The position numbers and the translations under genes are program-made. The notes beneath the pieces were generated by a model that saw only the letters and a program-made list of their open reading frames with translations, did no database searches and had not been told where the DNA came from. Shown here one piece after another: positions 2,706 to 42,520 of a stretch of 50,340 nt of DNA (position 1 is the first letter of the stretch; each line of letters opens with the position of its first letter). The stretch comes from a virus: IMG/VR virus record IMGVR_UViG_3300045413_000124, positions 1-50,340 of that record. One strand, given 5' to 3'.

Positions 2706-3836
2706 TCAGAGTTTGAATCCACTAAAAGTATCCTTTTGGAGGTCTTGCTTAATTCCTCCAACAACATAGGACTCAACCTCCGTTTCCTGAGGAGCAACTT
2801 GCAATCCCTTAGAAGAGATCCAATGTTGTGTCCAAGGAAGTGGATTATTATTTGCAGAAATGTCATAGACTGGTTTTAGACCAATCGCTTTCAGTCTACG
2901 ATTAGCAATCCATTCAACATATTGTTGCAGCAATTTATCATTGAGTCCAATCATTGAACCATCTCTGAAAAGATAATCTGCCCAACGTTTTTCTTCATTA
3001 ACTGCACGATCAAACATTGCGTATGTCCACTCTTCTTCCTCTTGGGAAATCTTTTTCATATCTGGATCATCACCCTGCTTCCACTTATTCAGAATATTCT
3101 GAGTGATTGCAAGATGTTGATTTTCATCTCTTGCGATAAGAGAAATGATTTTTGCAGATCCTTCCATGAGTTTAAGTTCACCAAAAGCAAAGGAACATGC
3201 AAAGCTAACATAGAAACGAATTCCCTCTAAGATGTTGACATTTGCAATTGCTCGATATAACTTTCGTTTCAGTTCATATCTTTGCTCTTTAAAATTACCT
3301 GCACCTTCCTGGGCATGAATCCAATCATTACTGGTTCCATACTGTTGAGCAGATAAGATAAAGTCATCATATGATTCAGTAACACTAGAAGCACGTTCTA
3401 GAATTCTTTCGTCTGTAATAATTTTATCTAAAACCTCACTAGGATCTGAATAAACATTCTTGATAATATAAGTGTATGAGCGACTATGAATCATCTCCAT
3501 AAATCCCCATACTTCCATACATGCTTCAAGTTCTGGTAAAGAACAATATGGCATAAAAGACATACCAGGACCTCTACCTTGAACAGAGTCAAGCATGATT
3601 TGATATTTCAAATTGGAAGTGTAAATATGTTTTTGTTCTGGACGAAGTGTGTGATAATCTCCTCTGTCTTTTTGAAGTGAGACCTCTTCTGGTCTCCAAA
3701 AGTAACCTAATTGTTGCGTTGTAAGTTTTTCAAAAATTGGATACTTAAAAGAATCATATCTTTGAATACCCAATGGTTGTCCAAAAAACATTGGTTGTTT
3801 TTTGTAATCATGTTTCTCGGTGTTGAACACCGTCAT
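2706..3836 (-). CDS. nrdB: Ribonucleotide reductase class Ia, beta subunit
   Basis: 376 aa (T4 NrdB 388). Houses the di-iron/tyrosyl radical that starts reduction of ribonucleotides by NrdA. Visible residues in E. coli order: D83 (MLDSVQG), E114 and H117 (MEMIHSRSY) with radical Tyr121, E204 (LEGIRFY), E238 and H241 (DENQHL). The frame is open to a GTG at 3899 overlapping nrdA, but the ATG at 3836 gives MTVFNTEKH..QPMFFG, which lines up with the T4 start. Follows nrdA and ends at a strong terminator. Confidence 0.96.
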   Translation of the reverse strand: MTVFNTEKHDYKKQPMFFGQPLGIQRYDSFKYPIFEKLTTQQLGYFWRPEEVSLQKDRGDYHTLRPEQKHIYTSNLKYQIMLDSVQGRGPGMSFMPYCSLPELEACMEVWGFMEMIHSRSYTYIIKNVYSDPSEVLDKIITDERILERASSVTESYDDFILSAQQYGTSNDWIHAQEGAGNFKEQRYELKRKLYRAIANVNILEGIRFYVSFACSFAFGELKLMEGSAKIISLIARDENQHLAITQNILNKWKQGDDPDMKKISQEEEEWTYAMFDRAVNEEKRWADYLFRDGSMIGLNDKLLQQYVEWIANRRLKAIGLKPVYDISANNNPLPWTQHWISSKGLQVAPQETEVESYVVGGIKQDLQKDTFSGFKL

Positions 3837-38239: not shown

Positions 38240-38677
38240 CTATCCAAGCCCAGCAGTGAATCTCATGAATTCAATAGCATTTTTGATTTGATAATTTCGT
38301 TGATGAATTTGTTTGAGAATGTCCTCAATATAATTAATCATCGTATCATAGTAATCTAATTTAAGAGATACTGCCGATAATTTTTCATCAGCATCAAGAT
38401 ACTTTTGCATCGTATCCTTATCACGAATTTTTTTAGGAAAAGGATTTTCTACATACACATCTGGATCTGCTTTTCCTGAAAAATATTCATAACGTTCATG
38501 ACGAATATTTTTTCTTTGTTGTTCTGCTTTTTTCTTTAACAGAATTATATTATTATAAAGTTCATGATATTTTGCATGAAGAGCTGGAATTTTTAAAGAT
38601 TCGTCATGCAAATTATCAGGATCCATGATGGAATCTTTAACCCACATCTCTTGAATCTTTTCAAGATCAAAAGTCAT
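38240..38677 (-). CDS. uvsY: Recombination mediator UvsY
   Basis: 145 aa (T4 137). Loads UvsX onto gp32-covered ssDNA. Matches T4 in pattern: LEKIQEMWVKDSIMD..L, RHERYEYFSGKADPDVY, DADEKLSAVSLKLDYYDTMI, and HQRNYQIKNAIEFMRFTAG. Start overlaps the gp3 stop (ATGA). Confidence 0.9.
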   Translation of the reverse strand: MTFDLEKIQEMWVKDSIMDPDNLHDESLKIPALHAKYHELYNNIILLKKKAEQQRKNIRHERYEYFSGKADPDVYVENPFPKKIRDKDTMQKYLDADEKLSAVSLKLDYYDTMINYIEDILKQIHQRNYQIKNAIEFMRFTAGLG

Positions 38678-39243
38678 AATTTTTTATTCTTCATATCATA
38701 GATGTCGTATATAGTATACTTGAAAGAAACTTCTGCTGTAAAGTAGGAGTAGTCCTCTACTGTTGCATCCATCTGCATAGCACTTAATGCGTATGGAAAA
38801 ATATTTTCAAATTTTACTTGAAACTGTGGCAATTGCTTACTATTCAGTACAACCATTGTTGCATCTGAATAAAGATTTTTTTGATCAGTAAATCCAGTAA
38901 ATTGTTCTTTTTGTTTTTGAAAGTTATAAATTTCACTTAGACTTTCTGGGTAATTAATACCTCTTATCCACCTTTGTATTTCCATATAGTTGAGAAGTTC
39001 TTCATCAATAAGAAATCTAACGTTAAGATCTTCAAAGACTGGTTTATCCCCAGGAATTGGGATATTCTTTAAATAAGTTGGTTGCTCAGCAAATCCACAT
39101 GATAGTCCTGGTATATTAACTTGATTACCCGTGAATGATACGTATGGAGCTCTGGCAATTGTGAAATTAAATCCAACACCAGAAAGATAGTTTCTGTTTT
39201 TGAGTTGTTGATTATCTACACTTCTGGCGGGAGTAATTGACAT
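38674..39243 (-). CDS. gp3: Tail completion and sheath stabiliser (gp3-like)
   Basis: 189 aa (T4 gp3 176). Assigned mainly by position between gp23 and uvsY, as in other cyanomyoviruses, and by tail-tube-like features (VSFTGNQVNIPGL; VFEDLNVRFLIDEELLNYMEIQRWIRGI; ISLKYTIY-like C-terminus). In T4 gp3 caps the tube to set tail length. An alternative is a tube-related protein such as gp54. Confidence 0.72.
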   Translation of the reverse strand: MSITPARSVDNQQLKNRNYLSGVGFNFTIARAPYVSFTGNQVNIPGLSCGFAEQPTYLKNIPIPGDKPVFEDLNVRFLIDEELLNYMEIQRWIRGINYPESLSEIYNFQKQKEQFTGFTDQKNLYSDATMVVLNSKQLPQFQVKFENIFPYALSAMQMDATVEDYSYFTAEVSFKYTIYDIYDMKNKKL

Positions 39244-39262: not shown

Positions 39263-39290
39263 AAAAAACCACCCCCTTTTGGAGGTGGTT
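39262..39290 (-). terminator. Rho-independent terminator after the porin-like gene
   Basis: Minus-strand AACCACC / GGTGGTT stem with extra C:G pairing, followed by seven T. Confidence 0.85.
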
Positions 39291-39312: not shown

Positions 39313-39684
39313 TCAGAAAGCGTAACGAACTTTCAGTTCACCACCCATATCAAATACTTTGGAAAGACCGCCGTACTCGCCAGTCACTTTGGCGTTTACA
39401 GAAACGTTCTTAGCAACTTTGGTTTTTACACCAACTTCACCAACGGTCACGTATTCGTTGCGGGTAGAACCAGTATTCCACTCATAACCAGGACCAATTT
39501 CACCAAAAACAACAACATTCTTGGCAACATTATCCTCGTAACCGATACGCAGTTCAGTCTGTGCAGACTTATAGTTACCATCAGAAAGAGCGGTTGTAGT
39601 CTTGCTTTCTACATAGGGGCCAGCAAAAGCAGCCGAAGCAAGAAAAGGAGTAGCAGCAGCAGCTGCAATAGCGGGTTTAAACAT
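39313..39684 (-). CDS. Secreted porin-like beta-barrel protein
   Basis: 123 aa. Signal peptide MFKPAIAAAAATPFLASAAFA with likely cleavage before GPYV. The mature part has alternating strands (TELRIGYEDN, VVVFGEIGPGYEW, EVGVKTKVAKNVSVNAKVTGEYG) and ends in YAF, as outer-membrane barrels do. Found next to gp23 in many cyanomyoviruses. Role unclear: superinfection exclusion or envelope change at lysis. It has a sigma70-like promoter and a structured leader, unlike its late neighbours. GAGG ribosome site. Confidence 0.78.
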   Translation of the reverse strand: MFKPAIAAAAATPFLASAAFAGPYVESKTTTALSDGNYKSAQTELRIGYEDNVAKNVVVFGEIGPGYEWNTGSTRNEYVTVGEVGVKTKVAKNVSVNAKVTGEYGGLSKVFDMGGELKVRYAF

Positions 39685-39730
39685 AAGAGTGCCTCTATAT
39701 TTTCTCGCAGAGTTGTACCTGCGGATGTAA

Positions 39731-39782
39731 GGAGTTTCGACTAACTCCGTTTTTTATCTGAGCGAGTAATTGAGGCTCAGAT
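39731..39782 (-). promoter_or_regulatory. Two hairpins in the leader of the porin-like gene
   Basis: GGAGTT/AACTCC (39731-39748) and an 8-bp perfect repeat ATCTGAGC/GCTCAGAT (39756-39782) in the roughly 100-nt leader. Run of A on the minus strand between them (T on the plus). Not a minus-strand terminator; may control translation or stability. Confidence 0.5.
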
Positions 39783-39795
39783 ATTTAACTTGTAT

Positions 39796-39825
39796 AGTCT
39801 AACACTCTTTATGAAATTGTGTCAA
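39796..39825 (-). promoter_or_regulatory. Sigma70-like promoter TTGACA-18-TAGACT
   Basis: -35 TTGACA (39820-39825), -10 TAGACT (39796-39801), spacer 18 nt, 22 nt after the gp23 terminator T-run. Drives the porin-like gene. Confidence 0.6.
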
Positions 39826-39847: not shown

Positions 39848-39875
39848 AAAAAAAGAGGGTCCGTGTGGACCCTCT
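39848..39875 (-). terminator. Rho-independent terminator after gp23
   Basis: Perfect 9-bp stem AGAGGGTCC/GGACCCTCT with loop ACAC and seven T on the minus strand. 21 nt after the capsid gene stop. Confidence 0.92.
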
Positions 39876-39896: not shown

Positions 39897-41306
39897 TCAC
39901 ATGAGGTTCTTAACAAGTACGCGACGATAGTAGCGGTTTGCGTTGACCAGAAGTCTGCCTGAACCCTGAGTGGTTCCTTCCGCAAATGGGTTAGCAACAA
40001 TACCGTAGCGGGTCTTGAAGCCAATCTTTGGTTGGAAGGAGTTCTCACCAACGGCACGAACCATTTGGAGAGGAACATATGGGCAATAGAACAGACCAGC
40101 GTCATAAGGAGAAGTGCCCTTATAACCAACAACGTAGTACTGGTTAGCAGCAACGTTTGCTGAATATGGGTCAATGTAGACGCGATACTTACCGTTCAGA
40201 GTACCAGCAAAAGTATTGCCAGTGTCATCAACGTTCAGATTAGCGTTGAGTGCAGGGGTGTAATCGAGAACGCCTGCCATGGTGAGTGCAGAAGCAACGT
40301 CAGCAGAACAAAGGATGACGTTACCCTTCCCTCTACGAGTTCTTTGTGCAATTGCGTTAGCATCACGCTCGATTTGGAAGATCAGACCCTTGAACTTTTC
40401 AACTGACCAACGACCGTTGGAGTCGATGTCTAGGTCAAACTGACCAGCGGTAGCGGTGTTTACAGCAGCACCTTGCTCAGCAACCTTGTAGATGGTTCTG
40501 ATGATTTCGCGGTTGATCTCGGCAAGAATCTCGGTTGAGAGAATATTTGCGAGTTCAGCCTCAGCATTCAGACCATGAATTGCTTTCAGGTCCTGAGCGA
40601 GTTCAAGTGAGTACTCAGCTTTCAGTGCTCTTGACTTAGCGGTAACAGTGACTTTCTCGATTGAGAATGCCATCTGGTTGAACGCATCATTACCTGTATT
40701 CAGGTTTTCTGCGTCACCCGTTGCCATGCCCTGACCTACATCATATCCTGTGGAAGATGCAGTTGAAACTGGGTTGAGAACTGATGGGTTGTTACCTGAC
40801 TGAGCAGTAGTACCCATACCAGCAGCGACGTCGCTGAAACCAGCGGTCTCATCGAATCCTGCATCCTGACCAGAGAATGCGGAATCTGCCTCATCGAAAA
40901 ATGCCTCAGTACCAGACTGAGTATTGTAGCGTGAGCGCATTGCGAAGATAAGTCCAGTAGGACCACTCATTGGTTGAACACCAGCCAGATCATAAGCGAT
41001 CAGGTTTGGCATTGAACGTCTGATGAGTGAAATCAGAACTGGGTCAAAACCTGCAACTGGACCAGTTGCGGTTGCACTGCCACCAAAACCGCCAGAAGCG
41101 CCAGCGGCGTTAGCGGCGTTGGTAGGAACAGCTTCTGCTAAGTATCCAGAACCTGTTTCGAAAGCATGTTGCTCTTTTAAAAATTTTTCTTGGTTTTCCA
41201 GCAGGACAGCGGTGACTGCTCTTCTATGCGAATCTTTGATTTGGTCAAGACCTTGATAGTCTAGAAGAGGTGCCCACTTTTCCTGCAACTGTTCGGAATA
41301 GAACAT
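39897..41306 (-). CDS. gp23: Major capsid protein (T4 gp23)
   Basis: 469 aa (T4 521). HK97-fold shell protein. N-terminal delta domain 1-58 with gp21 cleavage site YLAE|AVPT (after Glu58); then VLISLIRRSMPNLIAYDLAGVQPMSGPTGLIFAM, typical of gp23. C-terminus FKTRYGIVANPF...NRYYRRVLVKNL. Strong ribosome site GGAGACA and strong terminator, fitting high late expression. Confidence 0.97.
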   Translation of the reverse strand: MFYSEQLQEKWAPLLDYQGLDQIKDSHRRAVTAVLLENQEKFLKEQHAFETGSGYLAEAVPTNAANAAGASGGFGGSATATGPVAGFDPVLISLIRRSMPNLIAYDLAGVQPMSGPTGLIFAMRSRYNTQSGTEAFFDEADSAFSGQDAGFDETAGFSDVAAGMGTTAQSGNNPSVLNPVSTASSTGYDVGQGMATGDAENLNTGNDAFNQMAFSIEKVTVTAKSRALKAEYSLELAQDLKAIHGLNAEAELANILSTEILAEINREIIRTIYKVAEQGAAVNTATAGQFDLDIDSNGRWSVEKFKGLIFQIERDANAIAQRTRRGKGNVILCSADVASALTMAGVLDYTPALNANLNVDDTGNTFAGTLNGKYRVYIDPYSANVAANQYYVVGYKGTSPYDAGLFYCPYVPLQMVRAVGENSFQPKIGFKTRYGIVANPFAEGTTQGSGRLLVNANRYYRRVLVKNLM

Positions 41307-42512: not shown

Positions 42513-42520
42513 TATTTATA
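42513..42520 (-). promoter_or_regulatory. Late promoter TATAAATA for gp22
   Basis: Exact T4 late consensus on the minus strand, 37 nt before the gp22 ATG, in the gap after gp21. Confidence 0.8.

Follow-up and report, generated by a model that had tools for sequence, protein, structure and literature searches.

What is a small secreted protein with the look of a porin doing between the capsid and tail genes of a phage, and why should its message begin with a stable RNA structure? The question arises from a 50,340-nt stretch of a virus record (IMG/VR IMGVR_UViG_3300045413_000124, positions 1 to 50,340; hereafter the window), in which a gene for such a protein lies between gp23 and a gp3-like tail gene. 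The first-pass annotation of this locus had described a host-sigma promoter and a leader with two stable hairpins, and had proposed an envelope-modifying function such as the blocking of superinfection. On balance, we favour another reading, namely a portable cassette for an outer-membrane protein, headed by a cis-regulatory RNA of a new family. Its parts would be a promoter for the host sigma, a 5' leader RNA with three hairpins, a small outer-membrane beta-barrel and a terminator. The features of the locus are as follows.

38674-39243 (-): gp3-like open reading frame, with a phrog_45 'tail tube' match
39267..39290 (-): terminator-like hairpin 3' of the outer-membrane protein (OMP) gene
39313..39684 (-): Phage_OMP open reading frame, 123 aa, PF24653 / phrog_417
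in 39313..39684 (-): signal peptide (about residues 1-21, AFA motif), six predicted beta strands and C-terminal Phe
39422..39819 (-): 398-bp segment missing in the related locus L077 (cassette deletion)
39691..39695 (-): Shine-Dalgarno-like GAGGC, from sequence
39706..39723 (-): hairpin III, CGCAG...CUGCG, after a conserved CAUC
39731..39748 (-): hairpin II, GGAGUU-AGUCGA-AACUCC, with a conserved GUCG loop
39756..39782 (-): hairpin I, its loop with the conserved CUCAANUACUY
39796..39825 (-): sigma-70-type promoter, TTGACA-18-TAGACT
39854..39875 (-): terminator-like hairpin after gp23, just upstream of the cassette
39897-41306: gp23, the major capsid gene, PF07068

The 123-aa reading frame is present as first called. 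Its downstream neighbour (38674-39243, minus strand) matched no Pfam family; in relatives such as S-SM2 it is gp3 by name. Terminator-like sites flank the OMP gene on both sides, which suggests that it is transcribed as a unit of its own.

The protein belongs to a family that is already known: PF24653 (Phage_OMP), which is equivalent to phrog_417, T4-GC 241, cyanophage DUF680 and PhCOG173. The window protein matches the Pfam profile at 87.8 bits (cut-off 27), with residues 1-123 aligned to profile positions 1-122, and also matches phrog_417. It has the signal peptide, barrel strands and terminal Phe in common with the family and differs in belonging to a diverged subclade (ESKTT type) and in its site between gp23 and gp3. 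A tblastn search with the window copy returned 4 phage records (E limit 1e-3), and one with the S-SCSM1 member returned 467 of 50,697 (E limit 1e-2), labelled Synechococcus (360), Cyanophage (72), Prochlorococcus (24), Marine (8) and uncultured (3). In the excerpt of an earlier paper, DUF680 is present in 15 of 16 cyanophages, by the row label of a table as we interpret it (PMC3037559). Among 299 genomes of the host order, 23 had a PF24653 match at E <= 0.001 and 16 passed the cut-off, mostly in longer frames; the strongest of these matches lay on a phage contig. Host frames of about 320-335 aa (L305-L309) match the profile over about 90 residues at 32-38 bits, and may be cellular relatives of the phage barrel.

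In an alignment of 63 sequences, A19 and A21 before PYV are invariant, which by the AxA motif marks a signal peptide, and at the C-terminus F123 is invariant and Y121 conserved in at least 90%, as an aromatic beta-signal. AlphaFold2, run with the same 63 sequences, gave six strands with a mean pLDDT of 81.7; ten-residue blocks of the mature part reached 83-94, and the signal peptide was modelled at low confidence. No fold matched the model in Foldseek at E 0.001; the best solved structures were OmpX, Ail, OmpW, OmpA and OprF, all at E > 0.01, in a list that also holds a few unrelated non-membrane proteins. The AxA motif and the predicted strands agree with the first-pass description of a signal peptide and barrel-like strands, and the model supports a secreted, outer-membrane-barrel-like protein. 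To our knowledge, monomeric outer-membrane barrels have 8 or more strands; the six modelled here are few for a lone barrel, and oligomers are possible.

The promoter TTGACA-18-TAGACT is present at 39825-39796 on the minus strand. As a single site it proves nothing, since the 5.5-kb region holds 12 promoter-like sites against 12.7 expected; its weight derives from the sigma-70 sites in related leaders. Among the matches listed, 67 of 94 related leaders carry a sigma-70-like site of at least 10/12 (3.2% in mononucleotide shuffles), 76 carry the NATAAATA motif (3.7% in shuffles), 59 carry both and 10 neither, counts that are not independent because the 94 leaders are related by descent. The late motif of cyanomyoviruses is ATAAATA. 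The window leader has the sigma-70 site without the late motif, and a syntenic relative (L131) has, by eye, both. Of the early expression by the host sigma first proposed, the host-type promoter is supported, being conserved among relatives; expression confined to the early phase is not supported, given the 59 of 94 leaders with both signals, and a purely early promoter was set aside because the late motif has been added in many relatives. The companion claim that gp23 and gp3 both have late signals held in part: an exact NATAAATA scan found none directly before either gene, and the nearest copy on the same strand is at 42520/42516, before gp22.

The 111 nt from 39790 to 39680, which cover the leader, fold at -31.4 kcal/mol (z -4.26), and 0 of 200 shuffles fold as low, so that the stable, structured leader of about 100 nt described at first is borne out. 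The number of hairpins had to be corrected from two to three (I, II and III), based on both fold and sequence. The 3' end of the RNA lies about 10 nt upstream of the Shine-Dalgarno site. The first hint of conservation was the homologue in S-SZBM1, which is located elsewhere in its genome and has the same middle loop with other stem letters. Leaders were collected by protein similarity (71 IMG/VR loci) and by DNA pattern in IMG/VR (at least 119 stretches); of these, 93 distinct leaders passed a scripted filter that required GTCG...CATCYGC, an ATG close by and an AxA motif, and one S-SM2 leader was added by hand, giving 94 in total.

Without any alignment, the arms of hairpin II around GUCG formed 16 distinct pairs; pairing was 94%, where shuffles averaged 71% and reached 83% at most. 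The arm offset (1-3 nt) had been picked to maximise pairing, which biases the observed figure upwards. In the covariance-model set (59 matches, 43 distinct rows, in an alignment fitted to the model), 99.1% of cells in hairpins II and III were paired against 81.0% in shuffles, and two-sided changes occurred in 9 of 11 pairs, with a score of 0.570 against 0.213 that 0 of 500 shuffles reached; these changes fell in 6 of 6 pairs of hairpin II and 3 of 5 pairs of hairpin III, where 100% of cells were paired. For the stem of hairpin I, in the 25 of 49 representative leaders chosen for holding its loop motif, pairing was 89.3% against 73.4% in shuffles and covariation 0.531 against 0.242 (0 of 500 on both), and two other measures were weaker (11 and 225 of 500 shuffles). 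When the partner was slid by one column, the pairing results dropped sharply, for hairpins II and III and for hairpin I alike. The loop cores stay constant while the stems vary, with CUCAANUACUY in I, GUCG in II and CAUC before III; in the pattern-derived set this constancy is partly selection, because the DNA pattern fixed part of the loops. The fixed loops are also found in the loci collected by protein similarity and in the named phages, with exceptions such as S-RSM4, which lacks GUCG. On this comparative evidence, drawn from sequence alone, the leader is a structured RNA kept by compensatory mutation.

By eye, hairpin I (GTGCCTCAAYTAMTCGCAC) lies upstream of the sigma-70-like site in S-RSM4 (L314) and S-MbCM7 (L321). 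Hairpin I is therefore separable, and there a transcript would include it only if it began at another promoter, farther upstream; this layout speaks against its being fixed in every transcript.

A core model of the leader matched 15 of the 19 named phages examined: Syn19, S-SKS1, syn9, S-MbCM7, S-RIM2, S-SSM7, S-ShM2, S-SZBM1, S-SM2, S-SCSM1, Bellamy and S-TIM4, S-RSM4 in part and, weakly, P-SSM2 (23.5 bits) and P-HM1 (19.1 bits). It matched nothing before the OMP gene in DSL-LC02 and DSL-LC03, nor in the podoviruses NATL1A-7 and S-TIP37 (about 3.3 kb searched in each). The leader was present in 44 of the 69 IMG/VR protein relatives scanned (L007-L075), among which L021, L035 and L073 carry it before a neighbouring second family member, and absent from 25, at least one of them (L029) cut at the contig edge. 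These 25 loci and four named phages show that the leader is not always attached to the PF24653 family. When phage records were searched whole, 10 of 14 gave one strong match each. OMP genes with and without the leader often stand directly after tRNA genes, as judged by eye; examples without it are L003, L005, L046, L051, L056, L064 and L065, and examples with it are L007, L013, L031, L042 and S-SKS1 (L319), where the gene follows ten annotated tRNAs.

The leader was found in none of 5 host genomes, where scoring took in 150 of the 182-293 first-look candidates per genome, and at none of 79 host porin loci, some of them short on upstream sequence. At E <= 0.01, 2 of 299 host-order genomes had a match (16 candidates scored in each listed). 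One of them, G207, holds two matches on one 189-kb contig with gp23, and this contig is therefore viral; the other, G062, has a single weak match of 21.2 bits. A host origin was rejected because, among the candidates scored, host genomes and porin loci gave no match to the leader save for this weak one; the RNA occurs in phages, and for hosts there is no convincing case.

Which genes does the leader precede? Of at least 119 pattern loci, 98 were scanned, which gave 93 strong matches (39 bits or more) and another 5 that were weak (E 0.07 to 0.8), and the gene next to each strong match was classed by N-terminal motifs. Among the matches listed, it was PF24653-like in 76, a porin in 11, a truncated porin in 1 and a truncated signal-peptide reading frame in 1, and 4 ran into the contig edge, so that an outer-membrane protein gene comes next in 88 of the 89 strong matches with a readable next gene. 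The core pattern of hairpin I, searched without II and III, also stood before an OMP-like gene in 57 of 74 new loci examined.

The porins found in cyanophage contigs under the same leader include a SomB-type 'iron uptake porin' on L187 (NF033921, 293 bits), which differs from the window protein in its length of about 490 aa and its SLH and OprB domains, and matches PF24653 below the cut-off, mainly over the signal peptide. Cyanophage contigs with a probable SomB-type porin under the leader include L081, L110, L128, L136, L154, L155, L171, L173 and L187. No PF24653 match passed the cut-off in ten porin contigs (including that of L092), and 6 of the 10 had matches below it, mainly to the signal peptide; as these contigs are fragments, absence of PF24653 from the whole phage is not established. 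The neighbour of a family member is pstS in four of the named phages (S-SM2, S-SCSM1, P-SSM2 and S-SKS1) and a glutaredoxin gene in six (syn9, S-ShM2, Syn19, S-RIM2, S-TIM4 and S-SZBM1); the window copy has no pstS beside it. Upstream of a further OMP paralogue, the one that adjoins pstS in S-SCSM1, lies another conserved stretch, CTTAACGACAAAATCTGAAGACnCTGTTA, found at L197:3560-3650 and upstream of L021 and L073, with a variant in L035; it is perhaps a putative Pho-box-like promoter.

The cassette can also be lost. A close relative of the window (L077, positions 2999-3105), 97-98% identical to it on either side of the deletion and with a gp23 protein 99.4% identical, lacks the 398-bp segment, which takes with it the -10 element, the whole leader and about 88 codons and leaves TTGACA in place. 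As read from the two DNAs, L077 is a natural loss of the OMP cassette. L076 has the same layout and residual match, with letters not identical over the whole stretch compared, and would be a further natural loss as judged from match and layout only. Published work on S-TIM4 touches the same gene: its ORF224 (DUF680) matches PF24653 at 109 bits and carries the leader at 64 bits. According to the excerpt of that report, ORF224 gained 13 mutations in experimental evolution, many of them expected to be disabling, with a summed frequency near 100% per population and only on Synechococcus WH8102, and the authors speculate that its expression lowers fitness on this host (PMC6224464). These mutations could be re-read as the loss of an RNA-controlled envelope protein.

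What the barrel does can be weighed against this background. A role in permeability or nutrient uptake would be likelier than superinfection exclusion, since a porin occurs under the same leader and pstS is a neighbour in four phages. That the barrel blocks further phage adsorption, with a leader that just ensures early and stable expression, would suit the host-type promoter conserved among relatives and the small predicted fold, and finds a parallel in ipeX of Escherichia coli, where a phage porin transcript gives rise to an RNA acting on a host porin (PMC12197685). We nevertheless hold this quite unlikely: many relatives also carry the late motif (59 of 94 with both signals, among the matches listed), in other phages the leader heads a nutrient-type porin, pstS neighbours a family member in the four phages named, and disabling mutations on one host (PMC6224464) fit a role in permeability or nutrient supply equally well or better. 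A tentative but real possibility is an auxiliary metabolic gene that lets phosphate or iron across the outer membrane, with the RNA tuning it to the state of the host. The SomB-type porin and the pstS neighbours point to it, as does the link between PhCOG173/DUF680 and phosphate limitation made in the same excerpt (PMC6224464); the window copy without pstS and the glutaredoxin neighbour in six phages speak against it, and an open pore may need more than six strands.

Two further explanations leave regulation out of account. A minor virion component, whose mRNA would be a late structural message with a stable leader, is improbable. The late motif in 76 of 94 leaders (among the matches listed) would fit it, and an excerpt on S-SZBM1 lists the homologue SSZBM1_90, a gene with the leader, in virion LC-MS at 25.4% coverage, apparently from 2 peptides (PMC9146016); the S-TIM4 protein, by contrast, was not particle-associated (PMC6224464), so that the question of a virion component, raised with the first annotation, receives opposite answers from print. 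The signal peptide and terminal Phe also argue against a virion role, and outer-membrane fragments may co-purify with virions. That the hairpins simply shield the message from RNase E during infection would agree with their 5' position and stability and with RNase E being among the genes raised in infected Prochlorococcus, as an extract of PMC2518516 states. We consider it unlikely, because mere protection would need neither the fixed GUCG, CAUC and CUCAANUACU loops and linkers nor the conserved location beside the ribosome site.

The cassette under a cis-regulatory RNA thus remains the reading we prefer. The RNA most likely acts in cis on the translation or stability of the envelope protein, since its 3' end is some 10 nt from the Shine-Dalgarno site and an OMP gene follows in 88 of the 89 readable matches among those listed. 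Close to the ribosome site, it would set how much envelope protein is made or how long its message lasts; the protein may harm the phage if its amount is wrong or the host unsuitable, and the barrel would alter the permeability or composition of the host outer membrane during infection. The position next to the Shine-Dalgarno site is compatible with a riboswitch. Sequestration of that site by loop I (GCCUC; CCUC/GAGG) was not supported, pairing being 93.6% and the same in shuffles; in S-TIM4 the loop I site for this pairing reads GGCUC. An upstream reading frame or attenuation peptide was set aside as well, because, on inspection by eye, codons are not preserved where the stems differ. In the window, also by eye, the reading frame that crosses the loop contains a stop with no ATG from there to the loop; in some relatives this frame includes an ATG. 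A bolder version, which we regard as doubtful, is a dedicated, ligand- or protein-sensing class of cyanophage RNA, with three hairpins and fixed loops, that meters the insertion of outer-membrane proteins, serves interchangeable barrels and may act in trans on host porins like ipeX. If this were true, one RNA would serve both the small PF24653 barrel and a SomB porin that phages have captured.

T4-like cyanophages are abundant in the ocean, and the PF24653 family, present in 467 of 50,697 phage records, has no agreed function in the literature examined. The conserved RNA offers a direct handle on it, because the element, its loops and the separable hairpin I can be mutated in reporters. The locus would be a case of viruses keeping one regulatory RNA and swapping the outer-membrane protein below it.

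How does the leader relate to known regulatory RNAs? No family in Rfam (Rfam 15) matched the leader; the searches returned tRNAs and sub-threshold matches, all of them outside it, so that identity with a known Rfam cis-regulatory RNA was rejected; nor was the leader described in the literature searched (by title or abstract start, among the matches listed). As far as Rfam 15 and this literature show, it appears to be an undescribed RNA family. The wcaG, manA, glnA and PhotoRC-II elements, as presented in excerpts of PMC2864571 and PMC9964418, are likewise structured RNAs before genes of T4-like cyanophages, and they precede sugar, glutamine or photosynthesis genes, whereas the leader precedes outer-membrane proteins. 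Yfr1 resembles the leader as proposed here in the control of cyanobacterial outer-membrane proteins by RNA at the 5' UTR; it is a host sRNA that acts on porin mRNAs in trans (PMC6974561), whereas the leader would act in cis. The leader as a target or mimic of Yfr1 has weak support at best and was set aside, since the duplex is weak on average over 49 leaders (mean z -0.87; window -0.85; best -3.15, in marine-type leaders); the leader stem that the Yfr1 unadecamer would bind is variable. In ipeX of E. coli, a phage-borne porin gene also has a transcript that includes a regulatory RNA; there, as the excerpt of PMC12197685 has it, the RNA is processed and acts on ompC in trans, whereas the RNA of the cyanophage cassette would act in cis on the outer-membrane protein encoded directly below it.
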